This document shows, in pieces, positions 51,869 through 61,746 of a stretch of 64,000 bases of DNA. The notes under the pieces were generated by a model. The model searched no databases. It was not told where the DNA came from and saw nothing but the letters and a program-made list of their open reading frames with translations. Source of the DNA: Lachnospiraceae bacterium (GTDB taxonomy: Bacteria > Bacillota > Clostridia > Lachnospirales > Lachnospiraceae); NCBI GenBank assembly GCA_023663945.1, contig JAMPGL010000010.1, forward strand, positions 1 to 64,000, read 5' to 3'. How positions within the stretch are numbered: the stretch's first letter is position 1; each line of letters begins with the position of its first letter. Both the position numbers and the translations under genes were made by a program.

Positions 51869-53911
51869 ATGTGGATTGAAGGAAACTACAGAAGAAACCT
51901 GCTGGACATGCATATTGACGATTGGAATCCGGAGTTTCTTTCCAAGGTGGATGTGCAGGAGTATGTGGACGCGCTGAAGGCAGCAGGGGTGCAGGCGGCA
52001 ATGGTGAAGGGAAAGCCCCATACGGGATTATGCTATTATCCCACCAAAATCGGGCGAATGCACCGAGGGCTTAAGGGCTATGATTATTTTGGTGAGATGA
52101 TCAAGAAGTGCCACGAAAACAAGATAGCCGTAATCGCATATTTTTCTCAGATTTTTGACAATTGGGCGTATGAGGAGCATCCGTCCTGGCGGGTTGTCAC
52201 GGCGGAAGGGAAAAATATGAGAGAATACCGTCACGGGTCGGACTTTAAGACCGGACGGTACGGGATTGTCTGCCCCAATAATCCGGAATACCGTGAGTAT
52301 GTCAAGGCATGCCTGACGGAAATGAACACCATGTATGATTTTGAGGGCATGTTTTTGGATATGACCTTTTTCCCGGAGGTGTGCTATTGTGACAGCTGCC
52401 GGGAGCGGTACAAAAAGGAGACCGGCAAGGAGCTTCCAAGGCGTGTGGACTGGTCTGACCCGGATTGGCTTTCTTTTGTTTATCTGCGGGATGAGTGGAT
52501 TGCGGATTATGCGAAATTTGCTACCGGCTGTATAAAGGCGGTGAAGCCTCATGTGACGGTGGAGCATCAGTTTTCCAGAATTACGGGAAGCTGGATAGAT
52601 GGAAGCTCGGAAATGCTGACGGAGGCGGTGGACTATTCCGGCGGTGATTACTACGGCGGATTTTTACAGCAGACCTTTATCAATAAGTATTATAAAAATG
52701 TTTCCCCGAACCTTCCGTTTGTCTATCACACGTCACGGTGCGACCCGGAGCTCTGCTATCACACCACCACCAAGACGGAGGAAGAGCTGCTTTTGCATGC
52801 AGTGACGGCGCTGATTCACAACGGAGCATTTCTCCTAGTGGATGCGATTAACCCAGATGGAACAATTGTTCCGGATGTGTACCACAACATTATGAAAAAG
52901 GTTTTTGGACAGACGGAGCCTTACGAGAAGTATATCAGCGGAAAGCTTTACCATAATGCGGCAATCTGGTTTGCCTCTCATGCCAAATATGACCCCTCTG
53001 AGAAAAGCTGTGAGATCATGGATAAAAAGTTTTGGCCTGGATATTATATGGAAGCGCCTGTAGCATCGGCATCTATTTTGCGGGAAAACAATATTGCTTT
53101 TGAAGTGATTGGAACCAAAAACATCAAGGATGAAAAGGCGGATGTGATGATTTTGTCTCATGTGGCGGCTATCCGGGATGAGGAGATGGACGAAATCGAA
53201 GGATACTTGGAGCGCGGAGGAAATCTCTATATAAGCGGACCGGTGGGAAACGAACGGCTTCAGAAGCTTTTGGGCATCAGCATCATCGGAAGGACGGAAC
53301 ACGAATTTACTTATATGAGCCCTACGGAGGAGGGAAAAGAGATTCTGCAGGGATTTGACCGCCTGACGCCGCTGACGGTTCCTATGGCGCAGATGAGGGC
53401 GGAAATTATCGACGGAAAGGGGCTCACCGTTCTTGCGACCAGAACGCTCCCATATACCCGGACCGATACGGAAGACTTTGCGGCGATTCATTCCAATCCG
53501 CCCGGAATTTATACAAAGGAGCCCAGCCTGATCTTGAAGGATACCGGAAAAGGAAAATTAATCTGGTCTGCGGCGCCGATTGAAATGTCAAAGCCCTATA
53601 TGAGCCGGCAGGTATTTTTCCGAATCATTCAGTCGCTGATAAGAAAGCCGGTGTTTACCTCCAATGCACCGAAGTTTGTGGAGATTCTTTCTTGGGAAAA
53701 AGATGGGAAAGATTATCTGGCGGCGGTCAATGAGCAGGAGGAGTCACCGATTGCGCCCATGTATGATATTACGGTTGACGTGAAGAATCAGGGAAAACAT
53801 GCATATCTGCTTCCTTTAAGGGAGGAGCTTCGGACGGAGCCTGTGGGAGAGGATACCATGCGGATTTATCTGCCTAAGCTGGAGGTTTTCCAGATGATAG
53901 AGATTTCGTAG
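51869..53911 (+). CDS. Probable GH151-type alpha-L-fucosidase
   Basis: A cytoplasmic glycosidase-like protein of 680 residues. Residues about 10-380 look like a TIM barrel (VKGKPHTGLCYYPTKIGRMH, FEGMFLDMTFFPEVCYCDSC), residues 390-590 like the beta-galactosidase trimerisation domain, and the end like a beta-sandwich. That order and length fit GH151, whose known members are alpha-L-fucosidases. The gene leads into a ketose 3-epimerase and L-fucose isomerase, which supports fucose release. I do not assign the catalytic residues. AGGAGG precedes the ATG. Other glycosidases with this architecture remain possible. Confidence 0.65.
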   Translation: MWIEGNYRRNLLDMHIDDWNPEFLSKVDVQEYVDALKAAGVQAAMVKGKPHTGLCYYPTKIGRMHRGLKGYDYFGEMIKKCHENKIAVIAYFSQIFDNWAYEEHPSWRVVTAEGKNMREYRHGSDFKTGRYGIVCPNNPEYREYVKACLTEMNTMYDFEGMFLDMTFFPEVCYCDSCRERYKKETGKELPRRVDWSDPDWLSFVYLRDEWIADYAKFATGCIKAVKPHVTVEHQFSRITGSWIDGSSEMLTEAVDYSGGDYYGGFLQQTFINKYYKNVSPNLPFVYHTSRCDPELCYHTTTKTEEELLLHAVTALIHNGAFLLVDAINPDGTIVPDVYHNIMKKVFGQTEPYEKYISGKLYHNAAIWFASHAKYDPSEKSCEIMDKKFWPGYYMEAPVASASILRENNIAFEVIGTKNIKDEKADVMILSHVAAIRDEEMDEIEGYLERGGNLYISGPVGNERLQKLLGISIIGRTEHEFTYMSPTEEGKEILQGFDRLTPLTVPMAQMRAEIIDGKGLTVLATRTLPYTRTDTEDFAAIHSNPPGIYTKEPSLILKDTGKGKLIWSAAPIEMSKPYMSRQVFFRIIQSLIRKPVFTSNAPKFVEILSWEKDGKDYLAAVNEQEESPIAPMYDITVDVKNQGKHAYLLPLREELRTEPVGEDTMRIYLPKLEVFQMIEIS

Positions 53912-57538: not shown

Positions 57539-58012
57539 TTAAACCCTTCTCAAATATAAAGTATAGTCGCTTGGATCAAACTCGTCCCCATATCCTTTAT
57601 CAATGGCTTCCGTAAATCCGAATTTAAAATAAATATGCTTTGCCCGTTCGTTATTATCTTCAACGCCGATAGTAAATTCGGTATACCCCTGTTCTTCCAA
57701 ATCAGACAAGGCAAACCCAATTAACCTTTGTCCAAGCCCTAATCCTTGATAGCTGTTATCTAATCGAAAAGCTTGGAGATAAACTCTTTGACCGGGGATT
57801 GCCTCAGAAGCTAAATCATGACTGATATAATTAATTGACAATTCCCCTATAAAGGAATCATTTAGTTCAATTACATAAACATCAATTTCTTTCTTATCAA
57901 ATTCCTGTAGTCTCATGTTCCGGTATTTCAGCCACATTTGCTCATCATCCGGGAAAAGGTCATGCAATTTATCAAATTCATCTTTCGCAATTTTTCTGAT
58001 AATATAATTCAT
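57539..58012 (-). CDS. GNAT-family N-acetyltransferase
   Basis: A 157-residue acetyltransferase. The acetyl-CoA loop is SYQGLGLGQRLIG (around residues 87-99), followed by FTIGVEDNNERAKHIYFKFGF, the usual motif B. The substrate is not known. Its start overlaps the stop of the C39-like gene by four bases, so the two are one unit. It has a lower GC content than the genes to its left. Confidence 0.9.
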   Translation of the reverse strand: MNYIIRKIAKDEFDKLHDLFPDDEQMWLKYRNMRLQEFDKKEIDVYVIELNDSFIGELSINYISHDLASEAIPGQRVYLQAFRLDNSYQGLGLGQRLIGFALSDLEEQGYTEFTIGVEDNNERAKHIYFKFGFTEAIDKGYGDEFDPSDYTLYLRRV

Positions 58013-58632
58013 TTTGTTTCCTGTCTAATTTGGGCGGTATTGTACATGATTAATGCTTCACGGCAAGAATAGTCCCCCATTTCATAGTAGTCCATGGTAG
58101 TGCGGTTCATCCGCTCGATGCTGACGGAACGGTTGGCTTTTTTGGGAGTGTCAAGGAGAAATTCAATCTCGTCGGTGGAGTATTCCTCGTCCAGCTCCGG
58201 ATCATCGATTTCCTCGTAAAAGGGGTCAAACAACAGAACCCTGTCATCTTTGATTCCGGTTAAAAGGACGTAATGCGGGACTTCAAGGAAAACGTGCACC
58301 ACAACCACGCCGCCCTTTTTAAGCGCGTGAGTAATCCGGCTTTCAGGAGTAATGACAACCTCTTTCCCGGTAAAAAATTCACAGGCAAGGGGAAATTTCT
58401 TTACCTCTCCGAAATGATTCATCCAGCTTGCCATATAATTCATGGCGGCGGCGGAGGTGCCGTGTTTGCACAGCTCGCCCGCTTCATTATAGCTGTCCAT
58501 GCAGTAGAGCATGATAAATTTAACCAGATCGGGGGCAATCTCTTCCCGCTCAAACAGATAGCGGATGCCGTTTAACAGGCTGACAGGACCACAGTCATAT
58601 TCAGATGTTTGATAATTTAATAGGTTCTTCAT
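58009..58632 (-). CDS. Peptidase C39-like protein
   Basis: A 207-residue papain-fold protein. The catalytic set of the C39 group can be traced: Cys14 (EYDCGPVSLLNG), His120 (EVPHYVLLTG) and Asp136 (LLFDPFYEE). It lacks the membrane and ATPase parts of bacteriocin exporters, so it is a free cysteine-peptidase-like protein, possibly processing a peptide or protein inside the cell. The start is ATG 58632; a TTG 12 bases earlier is nearer to the AAGGAA site. It is coupled to the acetyltransferase gene. Confidence 0.78.
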   Translation of the reverse strand: MKNLLNYQTSEYDCGPVSLLNGIRYLFEREEIAPDLVKFIMLYCMDSYNEAGELCKHGTSAAAMNYMASWMNHFGEVKKFPLACEFFTGKEVVITPESRITHALKKGGVVVVHVFLEVPHYVLLTGIKDDRVLLFDPFYEEIDDPELDEEYSTDEIEFLLDTPKKANRSVSIERMNRTTMDYYEMGDYSCREALIMYNTAQIRQETK

Positions 58633-58751
58633 GGTATTTTGCAATATTCCTTAGTGTTTGATAGGTTTTGTTATAATTTATGTTGTGTCAAAAATAATGG
58701 TGCAAAGTGATTGTAATATACCGCGGTTTTCTCTGTTTGTCAATATATAAG

Positions 58752-58780
58752 TTGACATTGAAGAACGTATGTTCTATAAT
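58752..58780 (+). promoter_or_regulatory. Consensus promoter with LexA (SOS) box in the spacer
   Basis: TTGACA (58752-58757), exact 17-base spacer, TATAAT (58775-58780): a perfect sigma-A promoter. The spacer end holds GAACGTATGTTC (58763-58774), which fits the Gram-positive LexA/DinR core GAAC-RNRY-GTTC. Bound LexA would block RNA polymerase, so the restriction gene is probably induced by DNA damage. The bases 58645-58751 before it are AT-rich with no gene. Confidence 0.8.
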
Positions 58781-58816
58781 AATATATGAAATGTAAAGCA
58801 GTGCACGCTATTGTAC

Positions 58817-58846
58817 AATTAATTCTATAATGTTATAGAATTAATT
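58817..58846. promoter_or_regulatory. 30-bp near-perfect palindrome in the restriction gene leader
   Basis: AATTAATTCTATAA (58817-58830) and TTATAGAATTAATT (58833-58846) are exact complements around TG. It lies about 30 bases after the predicted transcription start and 115 before the gene. It has the form of a dimeric repressor operator or an RNA hairpin; no T-tract follows. Confidence 0.7.
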
Positions 58847-58931
58847 ATCTAATTATAGTATCATTATTTATATGTGAGAAAGTATAATAGTGAGTATTTT
58901 TATAATTGCAGTTATCAAAGGCGGAAAGACC

Positions 58932-58973
58932 ATGGAGAACAAAATATATAGGAGGCAATTATGGAAAAAATAA
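58932..58973 (+). other. Possible 13-codon upstream reading frame overlapping the methylase start
   Basis: ATG 58932 has AAGGCGG upstream and runs 13 codons to TAA 58971-58973, overlapping the first codons of the methylase gene in another frame. Two AGG Arg codons in the frame form the Shine-Dalgarno AGGAGG of the methylase. It may be a leader peptide that couples translation, or chance. Confidence 0.3.
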
Positions 58974-61534
58974 TATATACATTAGAAGCAGATGTAGATG
59001 ATTTTGTAAAGAGGAAGTTTGATAGTTTAAAACTCAGGAAAGGAATAGACTATAATGAAAAATCGGTTATGTCAAGTTATATGAAGGAAGCGTTAAAAGG
59101 TGCGGCTAAAACAAGAAATAAAAAAAGTTTTGGACAGCCAGATTTCCATATAGAGAAATATCAAATTCCGGTTGTAATTGAAAATAAACTTTATCATAAA
59201 TTTCACATTGCAGTTGCCAAAGAAGAAATTAAGGCGGATGATAAATCAGTTAGCAATTATGCAGTTAATGGCGCTGTTTATTATGCTAGAAGCATGATTG
59301 AAAGCAAGCGATATGATGAAGTAATTGCAATAGGTATTTCGGGAGAAAGCGATGATAGCATTAAAATATCTACTTATTATGTTTTTTCATCTAATATTAA
59401 ACCTAAATTTATGAAAGATTATAATTCACTTGATTTTTTAGAAAGTGAAGAAAGTTTTAATGCATTTTATGATAATGCAGTAGTTACAGAGGATGAGAAA
59501 CATAAAATTTTAATTAAAACACGAGAAGAACTTATTAAACATGCAAAAGTTCTCAATAAGATGATGAATAACCAAAATATAGGCGTTGAGCAAAGAGTAG
59601 TTTATGTATCTGGGATGCTGCTGTCAATGCAGGATGTATTAGATGACGATTTTTCAGTACTTGACGGCGGACTTGTGCCAGATGATTTGCAAGGTATAAA
59701 AACGGAGCAAAAGAGAGATGGAATAATAATAATTAACCATTTAAGAGATTACCTTGATAGAAAAAATCTTCCTGAGGATAAGAAAAATATTATGCTCGAT
59801 TCTTTTAAAATGTCGATATCTTTGGATGCGGCAAGAGATGTCCCGATAAATCTCGATAAAGCGGTAGATGGTATGATAAATGGTCAGGCATCAATTACGA
59901 AACAGATATTTACATATTTATACTTTAATGTGTATACTGCAATTAATTTGACAGGTGGAGCATTAGATATTATGGCAGAGATGTATTCTACCTTTTTGAA
60001 GTATGCATTAAGTGATGGAGCATCATTAGGTAAAGTTTTAACACCTCCATATATTACAACATTGATGGCTAAATTATTAGATGTAAATAAAAAATCCAAA
60101 GTTATGGATATTGCAACTGGATCGGCGGCATTTCTTGTTGCAGCAATGGAACAGATGATAAGTGATGTAAATAAAACATATGGAAAAAACACCAGTGCTG
60201 CACGGAAAGCGATAACTTCAATAAAAGAAGAACAATTATTGGGGATAGAAATTGATGCTAAAATGTACACACTTGCCGCTTCAAATATGATTTTACGCGG
60301 AGATGGAAGTACTCAAATAAAGAAGATGGATACATTTACAACACCAGAATCTGTGTTTGACGATTTTAATGCAGACGTACTTTTATTAAATCCTCCTTTT
60401 TCATATGCAGGAAATGGACTACCTTTTTTTAAATTTGGTCTTGATCATATGAAAAAAGGCGGGTATGGAGCTGTTATTATTCAAGATTCAGTAGGCGCTG
60501 GAAAGACTATTGAAATCACGACAGCAATTTTGGAGAAACACAGAATGATTGCAAGTATTAAAATGCCCATGGATTTGTTTGAACCGAATGCAACAGTGCA
60601 AACAAGTATATATATTTTCAAAGCAGGTACACCGCATAATTTTGATTATGATATTGTAAAGTTTATTGATTTTAGAAATGATGGATATAAACGTACGGAA
60701 AGATGTATAAAAGAGATTGATTATCCAACAGAAAGATATCAAGATATATATTTAGTTTACAAATTAGGATTTAATGCGGTAAAAAATTCAGAATTTCATT
60801 CAGAATTATGGGATTTAAAGAAAGTCTATTGTGAAGATACTATAAGTAAAAAGGGTGATGACTGGAATTTTGAGAAACATATTGAAATTAGCAATAAGCC
60901 GGAAGAAAAGTCTTATTTGAGTTCAATTGATCATCATCTATCATGGGATATTGAGAACTGGATATTGACACAAATTAATGCGCCCTTTTCAGAGGAAGCA
61001 ATAGAATATTTAATTCAAAAAGAAATGAAAGAATTTGAGGTTTCAAAAGTATTCAATATTACTAAAACATCATGTAGTTACAACAAGGAAGACTTAAAAA
61101 AACCAACAGACGACATAGATGTATATGACTATATAACAAGAACAGTAACGAATAGAGGAATTTGTGATATTACAGGATTCATTGACTCTAATGGATTAAA
61201 TGAGGAAGGTACTTATAGTTTAGGATTGCTTCAGATGGCATTTTTCTATCGTGAACGTGCATGGTATGGCGGTCAATTTATGAGAGTGGTATCTTGTAAA
61301 TATAAGATAGACAAATACGCGGGGTTATATTTAGAAACAATTTTAAATGGGTTGTCTGAGAAGCTTTTGTCGGGATTAGTTAGAGATGTTGATAAAACTT
61401 TCTTGAAAATGAAAGTATTGCTTCCGGTAAATAATGATGGAGAAATTGATTTTGAATGGATGTCTCATTTTGCAAGGGAGAGGGAAAAAAATATAATTCG
61501 TAGATTTTTTAGTGAATATCATAAGGAGGATTAA
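58961..61534 (+). CDS. Single-chain restriction-modification enzyme (type IIG-like, N6-adenine methylase)
   Basis: An 857-residue protein joining three parts. Residues 1-150 hold a PD-(D/E)XK-type nuclease motif: PD at 60-61, then E74-N-K76. Residues about 330-640 are a gamma-type N6-adenine methyltransferase with motif I DIATGSAAF (383-391) and motif IV NPPF (477-480). Residues about 650-857 look like a target-recognition region (LSGLVRDVDKTFLKMKVLLP). The layout fits type IIG enzymes that cut and methylate. Base composition is much more AT-rich than the flanks, which suggests transfer. AGGAGG precedes ATG 58961. Confidence 0.85.
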   Translation: MEKIIYTLEADVDDFVKRKFDSLKLRKGIDYNEKSVMSSYMKEALKGAAKTRNKKSFGQPDFHIEKYQIPVVIENKLYHKFHIAVAKEEIKADDKSVSNYAVNGAVYYARSMIESKRYDEVIAIGISGESDDSIKISTYYVFSSNIKPKFMKDYNSLDFLESEESFNAFYDNAVVTEDEKHKILIKTREELIKHAKVLNKMMNNQNIGVEQRVVYVSGMLLSMQDVLDDDFSVLDGGLVPDDLQGIKTEQKRDGIIIINHLRDYLDRKNLPEDKKNIMLDSFKMSISLDAARDVPINLDKAVDGMINGQASITKQIFTYLYFNVYTAINLTGGALDIMAEMYSTFLKYALSDGASLGKVLTPPYITTLMAKLLDVNKKSKVMDIATGSAAFLVAAMEQMISDVNKTYGKNTSAARKAITSIKEEQLLGIEIDAKMYTLAASNMILRGDGSTQIKKMDTFTTPESVFDDFNADVLLLNPPFSYAGNGLPFFKFGLDHMKKGGYGAVIIQDSVGAGKTIEITTAILEKHRMIASIKMPMDLFEPNATVQTSIYIFKAGTPHNFDYDIVKFIDFRNDGYKRTERCIKEIDYPTERYQDIYLVYKLGFNAVKNSEFHSELWDLKKVYCEDTISKKGDDWNFEKHIEISNKPEEKSYLSSIDHHLSWDIENWILTQINAPFSEEAIEYLIQKEMKEFEVSKVFNITKTSCSYNKEDLKKPTDDIDVYDYITRTVTNRGICDITGFIDSNGLNEEGTYSLGLLQMAFFYRERAWYGGQFMRVVSCKYKIDKYAGLYLETILNGLSEKLLSGLVRDVDKTFLKMKVLLPVNNDGEIDFEWMSHFAREREKNIIRRFFSEYHKED

Positions 61535-61542
61535 TTAGGAAA

Positions 61543-61746
61543 ATGGAGAAATTACATATAGAATTTGATTCACCATTAAATGAGCAGGACACAGAGCAAC
61601 AAACATATGGGTGCAGGGCTAATAATCCGGATATATGTTCTAATAATTCGATACCTAATATTTGTGCGTTTACATCTGCGGATAATATATGTAGAAGACC
61701 ATCTAGAGCATGGAAGAAACAATATGAAAAATTAAAAGCAAAATAA
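61543..61746 (+). CDS. Small Cys-rich protein next to the restriction enzyme
   Basis: A 67-residue protein starting eight bases after the methylase stop, so it is cotranscribed. Four Cys at 24, 32, 41 and 50 are spaced 8, 9 and 9 apart inside three short similar units (CRANNPDIC, SNNSIPNIC, AFTSADNIC), followed by a basic Trp-containing tail (RRPSRAWKKQYEKL). The pattern suggests a small zinc-binding or disulfide-knotted protein. No signal peptide is present. It may modulate the restriction enzyme; no family is certain. The ribosome site is weak (TTAGGAAA). Confidence 0.65.
   Translation: MEKLHIEFDSPLNEQDTEQQTYGCRANNPDICSNNSIPNICAFTSADNICRRPSRAWKKQYEKLKAK

Follow-up and report, generated by a model that had tools for sequence, protein, structure and literature searches.

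The DNA analysed here, the first 64,000 nucleotides of contig JAMPGL010000010.1 from a Lachnospiraceae bacterium (GenBank assembly GCA_023663945.1; hereafter the window), carries on its forward strand a gene for a single-chain Type IIG restriction-modification enzyme of 857 residues (58961-61534; PADLOC REase_MTase_IIG, E = 6.4e-186). The predicted promoter of this gene closely follows the consensus and is overlapped by a putative LexA box. The -35 hexamer TTGACA (58752-58757) and the -10 hexamer TATAAT (58775-58780), both read directly and recovered by a promoter scan, are separated by 17 bases, and the box, GAACGTATGTTC (58763-58774), found by direct reading and motif count, lies within this spacer. 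The geometry described in the initial annotation, TTGACA-17-TATAAT spanning 58752-58780 with GAACGTATGTTC abutting the -10 hexamer, is confirmed by direct reading and by a score of 12 out of 12 in the promoter scan, unique among the six sites listed for 58600-59000. When the 460 bases surrounding the gene start in the window are dinucleotide-shuffled, 0.125% of 4000 shuffles contain a perfect box.

The PADLOC Type IIG model covers residues 5-665 of the protein. Pfam places an N6-adenine methylase domain (N6_Mtase) at residues 336-482 (59966-60406), with NPPF at residue 477, and a single Methylase_S specificity domain at residues 687-846 (61019-61498), both on the forward strand. Residues 60-76 (PD...ENK; 59138-59188, forward strand), picked out by eye, form a candidate PD-(D/E)XK motif that we take to be the nuclease; Pfam gives no match at this position. 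Three solved chains match the protein, in its methylase part only. With nuclease motif, N6-methylase and one specificity domain following each other in one chain, the protein is, as judged from its sequence, a HaeIV-like single-chain Type IIG enzyme that would unite cutting, adenine methylation and recognition. Since these elements share one polypeptide, the ratio of cutting to marking cannot change on induction, and both activities would rise together. The initial annotation had considered restriction without prior methylation dangerous; this does not follow for such a chain, and a danger from unbalanced cutting is rejected because the predicted nuclease and methylase are fused.

Downstream of the -10 hexamer, a leader of approximately 175 nucleotides (58781-58960, forward strand; its start estimated from the -10 position) ends with a GGAGG ribosome site (58951-58955) before the ATG at 58961. 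Rfam reports no RNA regulator in this leader. It does contain an AT-rich inverted repeat (58810-58853) with 21-nucleotide arms that are 86% complementary and 2 nucleotides apart, which could be an operator or a hairpin.

LexA boxes in the host and at homologous loci

A search of the host genome for the LexA DNA-binding domain gives a single match, on contig 30, and one RecA scores above the cut-off. A perfect box, GAACATTTGTTC, lies upstream of recA, which has a second, one-mismatch box in its -35/-10 spacer; another perfect box, GAACTTTTGTTC, precedes uvrB, and four one-mismatch boxes are found upstream of lexA. The gene for a Y-family DNA polymerase (Pfam IMS) has a perfect box that is the same 12-mer as in the window, GAACGTATGTTC. 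It occupies the spacer of a TTGAAA-17-TATAAT promoter, three bases farther from the -10 hexamer than in the window. The window box thus matches the type present at recA, uvrB and the polymerase gene, with the lexA boxes one mismatch off, and the box type assumed in the initial annotation proves to be the one that the host uses.

Throughout the genome, labels that place GAACN4GTTC sites inside or outside genes are unreliable owing to overlong reading frames, and six candidates were inspected by hand. Besides the three genes with perfect boxes named above, these precede ArsR-type, DUF2726 and DUF3795 genes. The perfect box GAACTAAAGTTC, about 90 bp before the DUF2726 gene (L032:2432-2443; contig 30, 18431), possibly marks another SOS-linked gene, and the fully palindromic GAACATATGTTC (L038:2467-2478; contig 38, 25266) is intergenic, between the DUF3795 gene and a family-less open reading frame of 149 residues.

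Homologues of the enzyme were scored over 400 bp upstream and 60 bases inside the gene. The 28 scored loci comprise 11 from a scan of genome contigs, eight from family and order searches, and nine chosen among the 40 plasmid and 40 phage matches listed; 29 had been submitted, of which L104 (genome G341) gave no hit and was dropped, and L216 was left out. L009 and L010 are similar upstream, so the 28 loci are not all independent. Perfect boxes occur at three loci, whose proteins are 84%, 56% and 36% identical to the window's enzyme. The reversed-pattern control is perfect at one of the 28, and dinucleotide shuffles of the same upstream stretches yield a mean of 0.12 positive loci, with none of 1000 reaching three. 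At L004 (Lachnospiraceae, 84%), a TATAAT aligned with the -10 hexamer of the window precedes GAACACGTGTTC by 6 nucleotides, and the distance from this box to the ATG is 176 bp. At L088 (genome G210, 56%), CGAACTTGCGTTCG encloses a -35-like TTGCGT located 17 nucleotides before TATAAT, and at L068 (genome G014, 36%), GAACATAGGTTC follows TATTAT by 2 nucleotides; both of these genomes belong to the window's own family. Together with the window, the four boxes take four positions relative to the -10 hexamer (covering the -35, within the spacer, or downstream of the -10), which suggests that the box was gained or moved repeatedly among the homologues.

Several observations weigh against LexA control of the enzyme gene. 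No perfect box is present at 25 of the 28 homologue loci. When one mismatch is allowed, the loci contain four sites (three perfect) versus five for the reversed control (one perfect), so only the perfect sites exceed chance. L005, whose protein is 82% identical, has no box though its host's recA has boxes. At L068, the box has the centre ATAG, which departs from RNRY, and the host recA locus offers only a one-mismatch site in its first 1700 bases. The L088 gene is split into two parts that lie in different frames, with the second running to the contig end, and may not be intact. Furthermore, the host genome shows no enrichment of the bare motif, with 49 GAACN4GTTC sites (47 of them outside the window, read in 46 stretches) versus 56 for the reversed pattern; it is the placement of the box that carries evidence. 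Within the window there are two such sites versus 0.68 expected, a number reached by 11 of 100 shuffles; the second, at 52860, falls within an open reading frame of 680 residues. Finally, 90 N6-methylase loci of the family (30 best-scoring places and 60 chosen from further matches listed) show no general enrichment, with a single box (L162, GAACGATAGTTC, 198 bp upstream) versus one for the reversed control, and a LexA box as a general rule for methylase genes is rejected. At each of these loci, the longest frame containing an NPP-type motif was taken to be the gene, beginning at its first ATG, so that some starts may be wrong, and the survey would miss Type I operons with the box before another gene.

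Host differences may account for part of this pattern. At recA, seven homologue hosts fall into three groups: the hosts of L004 (with a one-mismatch box as well), L005 and L008 have a perfect box, those of L006, L012 and L013 show one-mismatch sites alone, and the L007 host has neither. Since some hosts have boxless recA genes or imperfect recA sites, the missing enzyme box may reflect a different LexA there, though not in the hosts of L005 and L008. Conservation of the box before homologues, which the initial annotation had made a touchstone of its proposal, is in large part lacking: 25 of the 28 scored loci have no perfect box, while the three perfect boxes exceed what any of the shuffles produced.

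Two further features were seen beside homologues. Small helix-turn-helix (HTH) genes lie immediately upstream of the enzyme gene in L006 (4645-4974; a match barely above the Pfam cut-off) and L008 (138-398), and neither locus has a box. Next to the 82% homologue, the product encoded from L005:5924 onwards resembles a C5-cytosine methylase, as judged by eye from the translation.

Genomic setting and the small downstream gene

On its left, the enzyme locus is bounded by a divergent gene for a C39-like peptidase, with a promoter-like site on the reverse strand (58715-58743; 11 out of 12 in the promoter scan). Similarity to genomes of the same genus ends at 58743 in L203 and at 58729 in L201, and in the other five same-genus loci blastn detects no similarity on the left side beyond the peptidase gene. 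The left edge can be drawn at about 58744. As same-genus similarity stops near the peptidase gene, the enzyme gene together with its promoter and the small gene that follows looks like an inserted islet. In all seven same-genus loci (L200-L206) the peptidase gene adjoins SpoVT. On its far side these loci have different genes from the window, and in four of the five viewed upstream a cysteine synthase-like gene, recognized from the printed proteins, lies there. In the window, a GNAT acetyltransferase gene (57539-58012) is located between SpoVT and the peptidase gene; tblastn finds none in the seven loci, and this appears to be a second small insertion beside the islet.

No mobile-element genes were recognized among the seven flanking proteins scanned. 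A phage or plasmid origin is rejected: a scan sensitive to close relatives only gave none in viral contigs, and among the matches listed a coverage of 80% or more of the query is reached by a single plasmid (50%, split genes, no box) and a single phage record (27%). An HTH controller gene of the islet's own was looked for on both sides of the enzyme gene and not found. The longest open reading frame wholly between the peptidase and enzyme genes has 37 residues, and from the enzyme end to 61870 there are only a 67-residue protein with no Pfam family and frames of at most 51 residues.

This 67-residue protein (61543-61746, forward strand) begins 8 bp after the enzyme gene and, from the spacing, is probably co-transcribed with it. 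Pfam, NCBIfam and PADLOC give no match to it, nor is there one at E 0.01 among the phage and plasmid collections. It is present in 10 of 397 sampled family genomes, the window's included, and among the 11 loci of the genome-contig scan tblastn finds it only in L006 and L008. In all nine other family genomes that carry it (L079-L087), one neighboring gene is a Type I specificity, Type I methylase or Eco57I-type gene. Four cysteines are invariant across 11 aligned sequences (the window, L006, L008 and eight of the nine other family genomes, the L084 copy being left out). The protein is possibly a new small accessory of Type I and IIG systems, and its cysteines would be suited to zinc binding.

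Proposed mode of control and alternatives

We consider it probable that LexA holds down a leaky promoter of the HaeIV-like enzyme, and that the SOS response acts as a volume control, not an on switch. The host LexA would bind GAACGTATGTTC between the -35 and -10 hexamers and block RNA polymerase. As in the general SOS pathway, DNA damage would activate RecA and cause LexA to cleave itself, opening the promoter; more enzyme would be made, and its single chain would keep cutting and methylation coupled. There is one box here, versus two at recA and four with one mismatch at lexA, which argues for leaky repression; the leak would in turn provide the basal supply that keeps the chromosome methylated at rest, before any damage. 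During damage, the extra enzyme may restrict unmodified DNA, for instance from phages, conjugation or induced mobile elements, and it would also methylate newly repaired host DNA. As the purpose of induction, we rank restricting foreign DNA first, re-methylating repaired DNA second and self-killing last. The SOS promoters of the host and the perfect promoter boxes of three homologues support LexA control itself, as put forward in the initial annotation; the 25 homologues without a perfect box weaken it.

That the main gain is modification seems unlikely to us. On this account, SOS raises the enzyme so that new, still unmethylated patches from repair and recombination become modified before they are cut by it. 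The fusion of methylase and nuclease motif means that any SOS boost would raise methylation, and the extracts of PMC3874165 describe a related problem in Type I systems, where sites lacking modification appear following damage, with alleviation of restriction. However, the nuclease would be boosted equally, and the data do not separate the two activities.

We give little credence to damage-triggered self-killing, in which tight repression would leave the chromosome unmethylated and induction would cut the host DNA, stopping phage spread at the cell's cost. A consensus promoter with a box in its spacer could be tightly held, and SOS-induced toxins such as SymE exist (PMC1891008, in the portion consulted), but the single box, set against those at recA and lexA, argues for a leak, and the enzyme with its fused methylase would protect host DNA as well as cut it.

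It is just as improbable that the box is a chance palindrome, or the site of another regulator, and that the gene is constitutive. The genome-wide excess of the reversed pattern, the 25 boxless homologues and the one-mismatch sites that do not surpass their control are all in keeping with such an explanation. It is opposed by the placement of the box in a promoter of full score, by the identical 12-mer in the host's Y-family polymerase promoter, and by the perfect boxes that three homologues have on or next to a promoter hexamer, a count that the shuffles never attain. Finally, it is very hard to credit that the box serves the divergent peptidase gene, whose -35 hexamer is only about 20 bp away, because the box sits inside the enzyme's promoter and no GAACN4GTTC is present in any of the seven same-genus loci that carry the peptidase gene (L200-L206, scanned whole, 2252-3609 bases).

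Beyond LexA-dependent volume control at this locus, we tentatively propose, at slightly less than even chances, that a horizontally moving lineage of single-chain Type IIG enzymes has repeatedly placed itself under the host LexA through boxes at differing points of the promoter. The host SOS repressor would then take the place of the HTH regulator gene that adjoins other members of this lineage, and restriction would be turned up, not alleviated, on damage. With cutter and marker in one chain, such a LexA-driven upturn would be tolerable.

Comparison with known systems

The host conforms to the Bacillota LexA regulon of the Bacillus subtilis DinR type, for which the box consensus is known, in having GAACN4GTTC before recA, uvrB and the Y-family polymerase gene and near boxes before lexA; it differs in that the regulated gene in the window encodes a restriction-modification enzyme. 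A study of the B. subtilis LexA regulon reportedly listed the BsuM methylase genes (ydiO-ydiP). In controller-protein (C protein) systems, a restriction-modification gene is under a DNA-binding regulator. Homologues L006 and L008, with their small HTH genes just upstream, resemble these, whereas in the window the presumed repressor is the host LexA and not a gene of the system.

As for the enzyme, the extracts of PMC3874165 give the order of HaeIV, a single-chain Type IIG/IIB enzyme, as nuclease, methylase and one specificity domain, with two specificity domains in AloI and a separate S subunit in BcgI. Like HaeIV, the window enzyme joins a (candidate) nuclease to a gamma-type methylase and a single specificity domain in the same chain (PMC3874165, same extracts), and by analogy is expected to act as a homodimer on a symmetric bipartite site; it differs in the LexA box of its promoter and the four-cysteine protein encoded downstream. 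BcgI is related in its restriction-modification part, and a staphylococcal phage homologue is annotated bcgIA/bcgIB, but the S subunit, separate in BcgI (PMC3874165, same extracts), is fused in the window enzyme.

Two damage-responsive systems offer partial parallels. According to the portion of PMC12907096 consulted, the Caulobacter gene vsrA encodes a PD-(D/E)XK endonuclease tied functionally to DNA methylation, its mRNA increases on DNA damage, and a LexA site is suspected within its open reading frame. That enzyme is of the repair type and nicks DNA, and its site is in the gene, whereas the window has a restriction-modification enzyme and a site in the promoter. In SymE/SymR, as presented in the consulted portion of PMC1891008, the SymE gene is LexA-repressed and its family is associated with restriction-modification loci; however, SymE is a toxin with an antisense RNA, not a restriction enzyme. 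In the portions of the open-access literature searched, we found no description of a LexA-controlled Type IIG system.

The sharpest comparison is with Type I enzymes, whose restriction is lowered by DNA damage, a phenomenon termed restriction alleviation (PMC3874165, same extracts). For a self-balanced enzyme, the window promoter predicts the opposite. If this prediction is true, it links the damage response to restriction, offers an easy way to test how well induction is tolerated in fused enzymes, and suggests that restriction goes up in some bacteria whose DNA is being damaged by antibiotics or phages.
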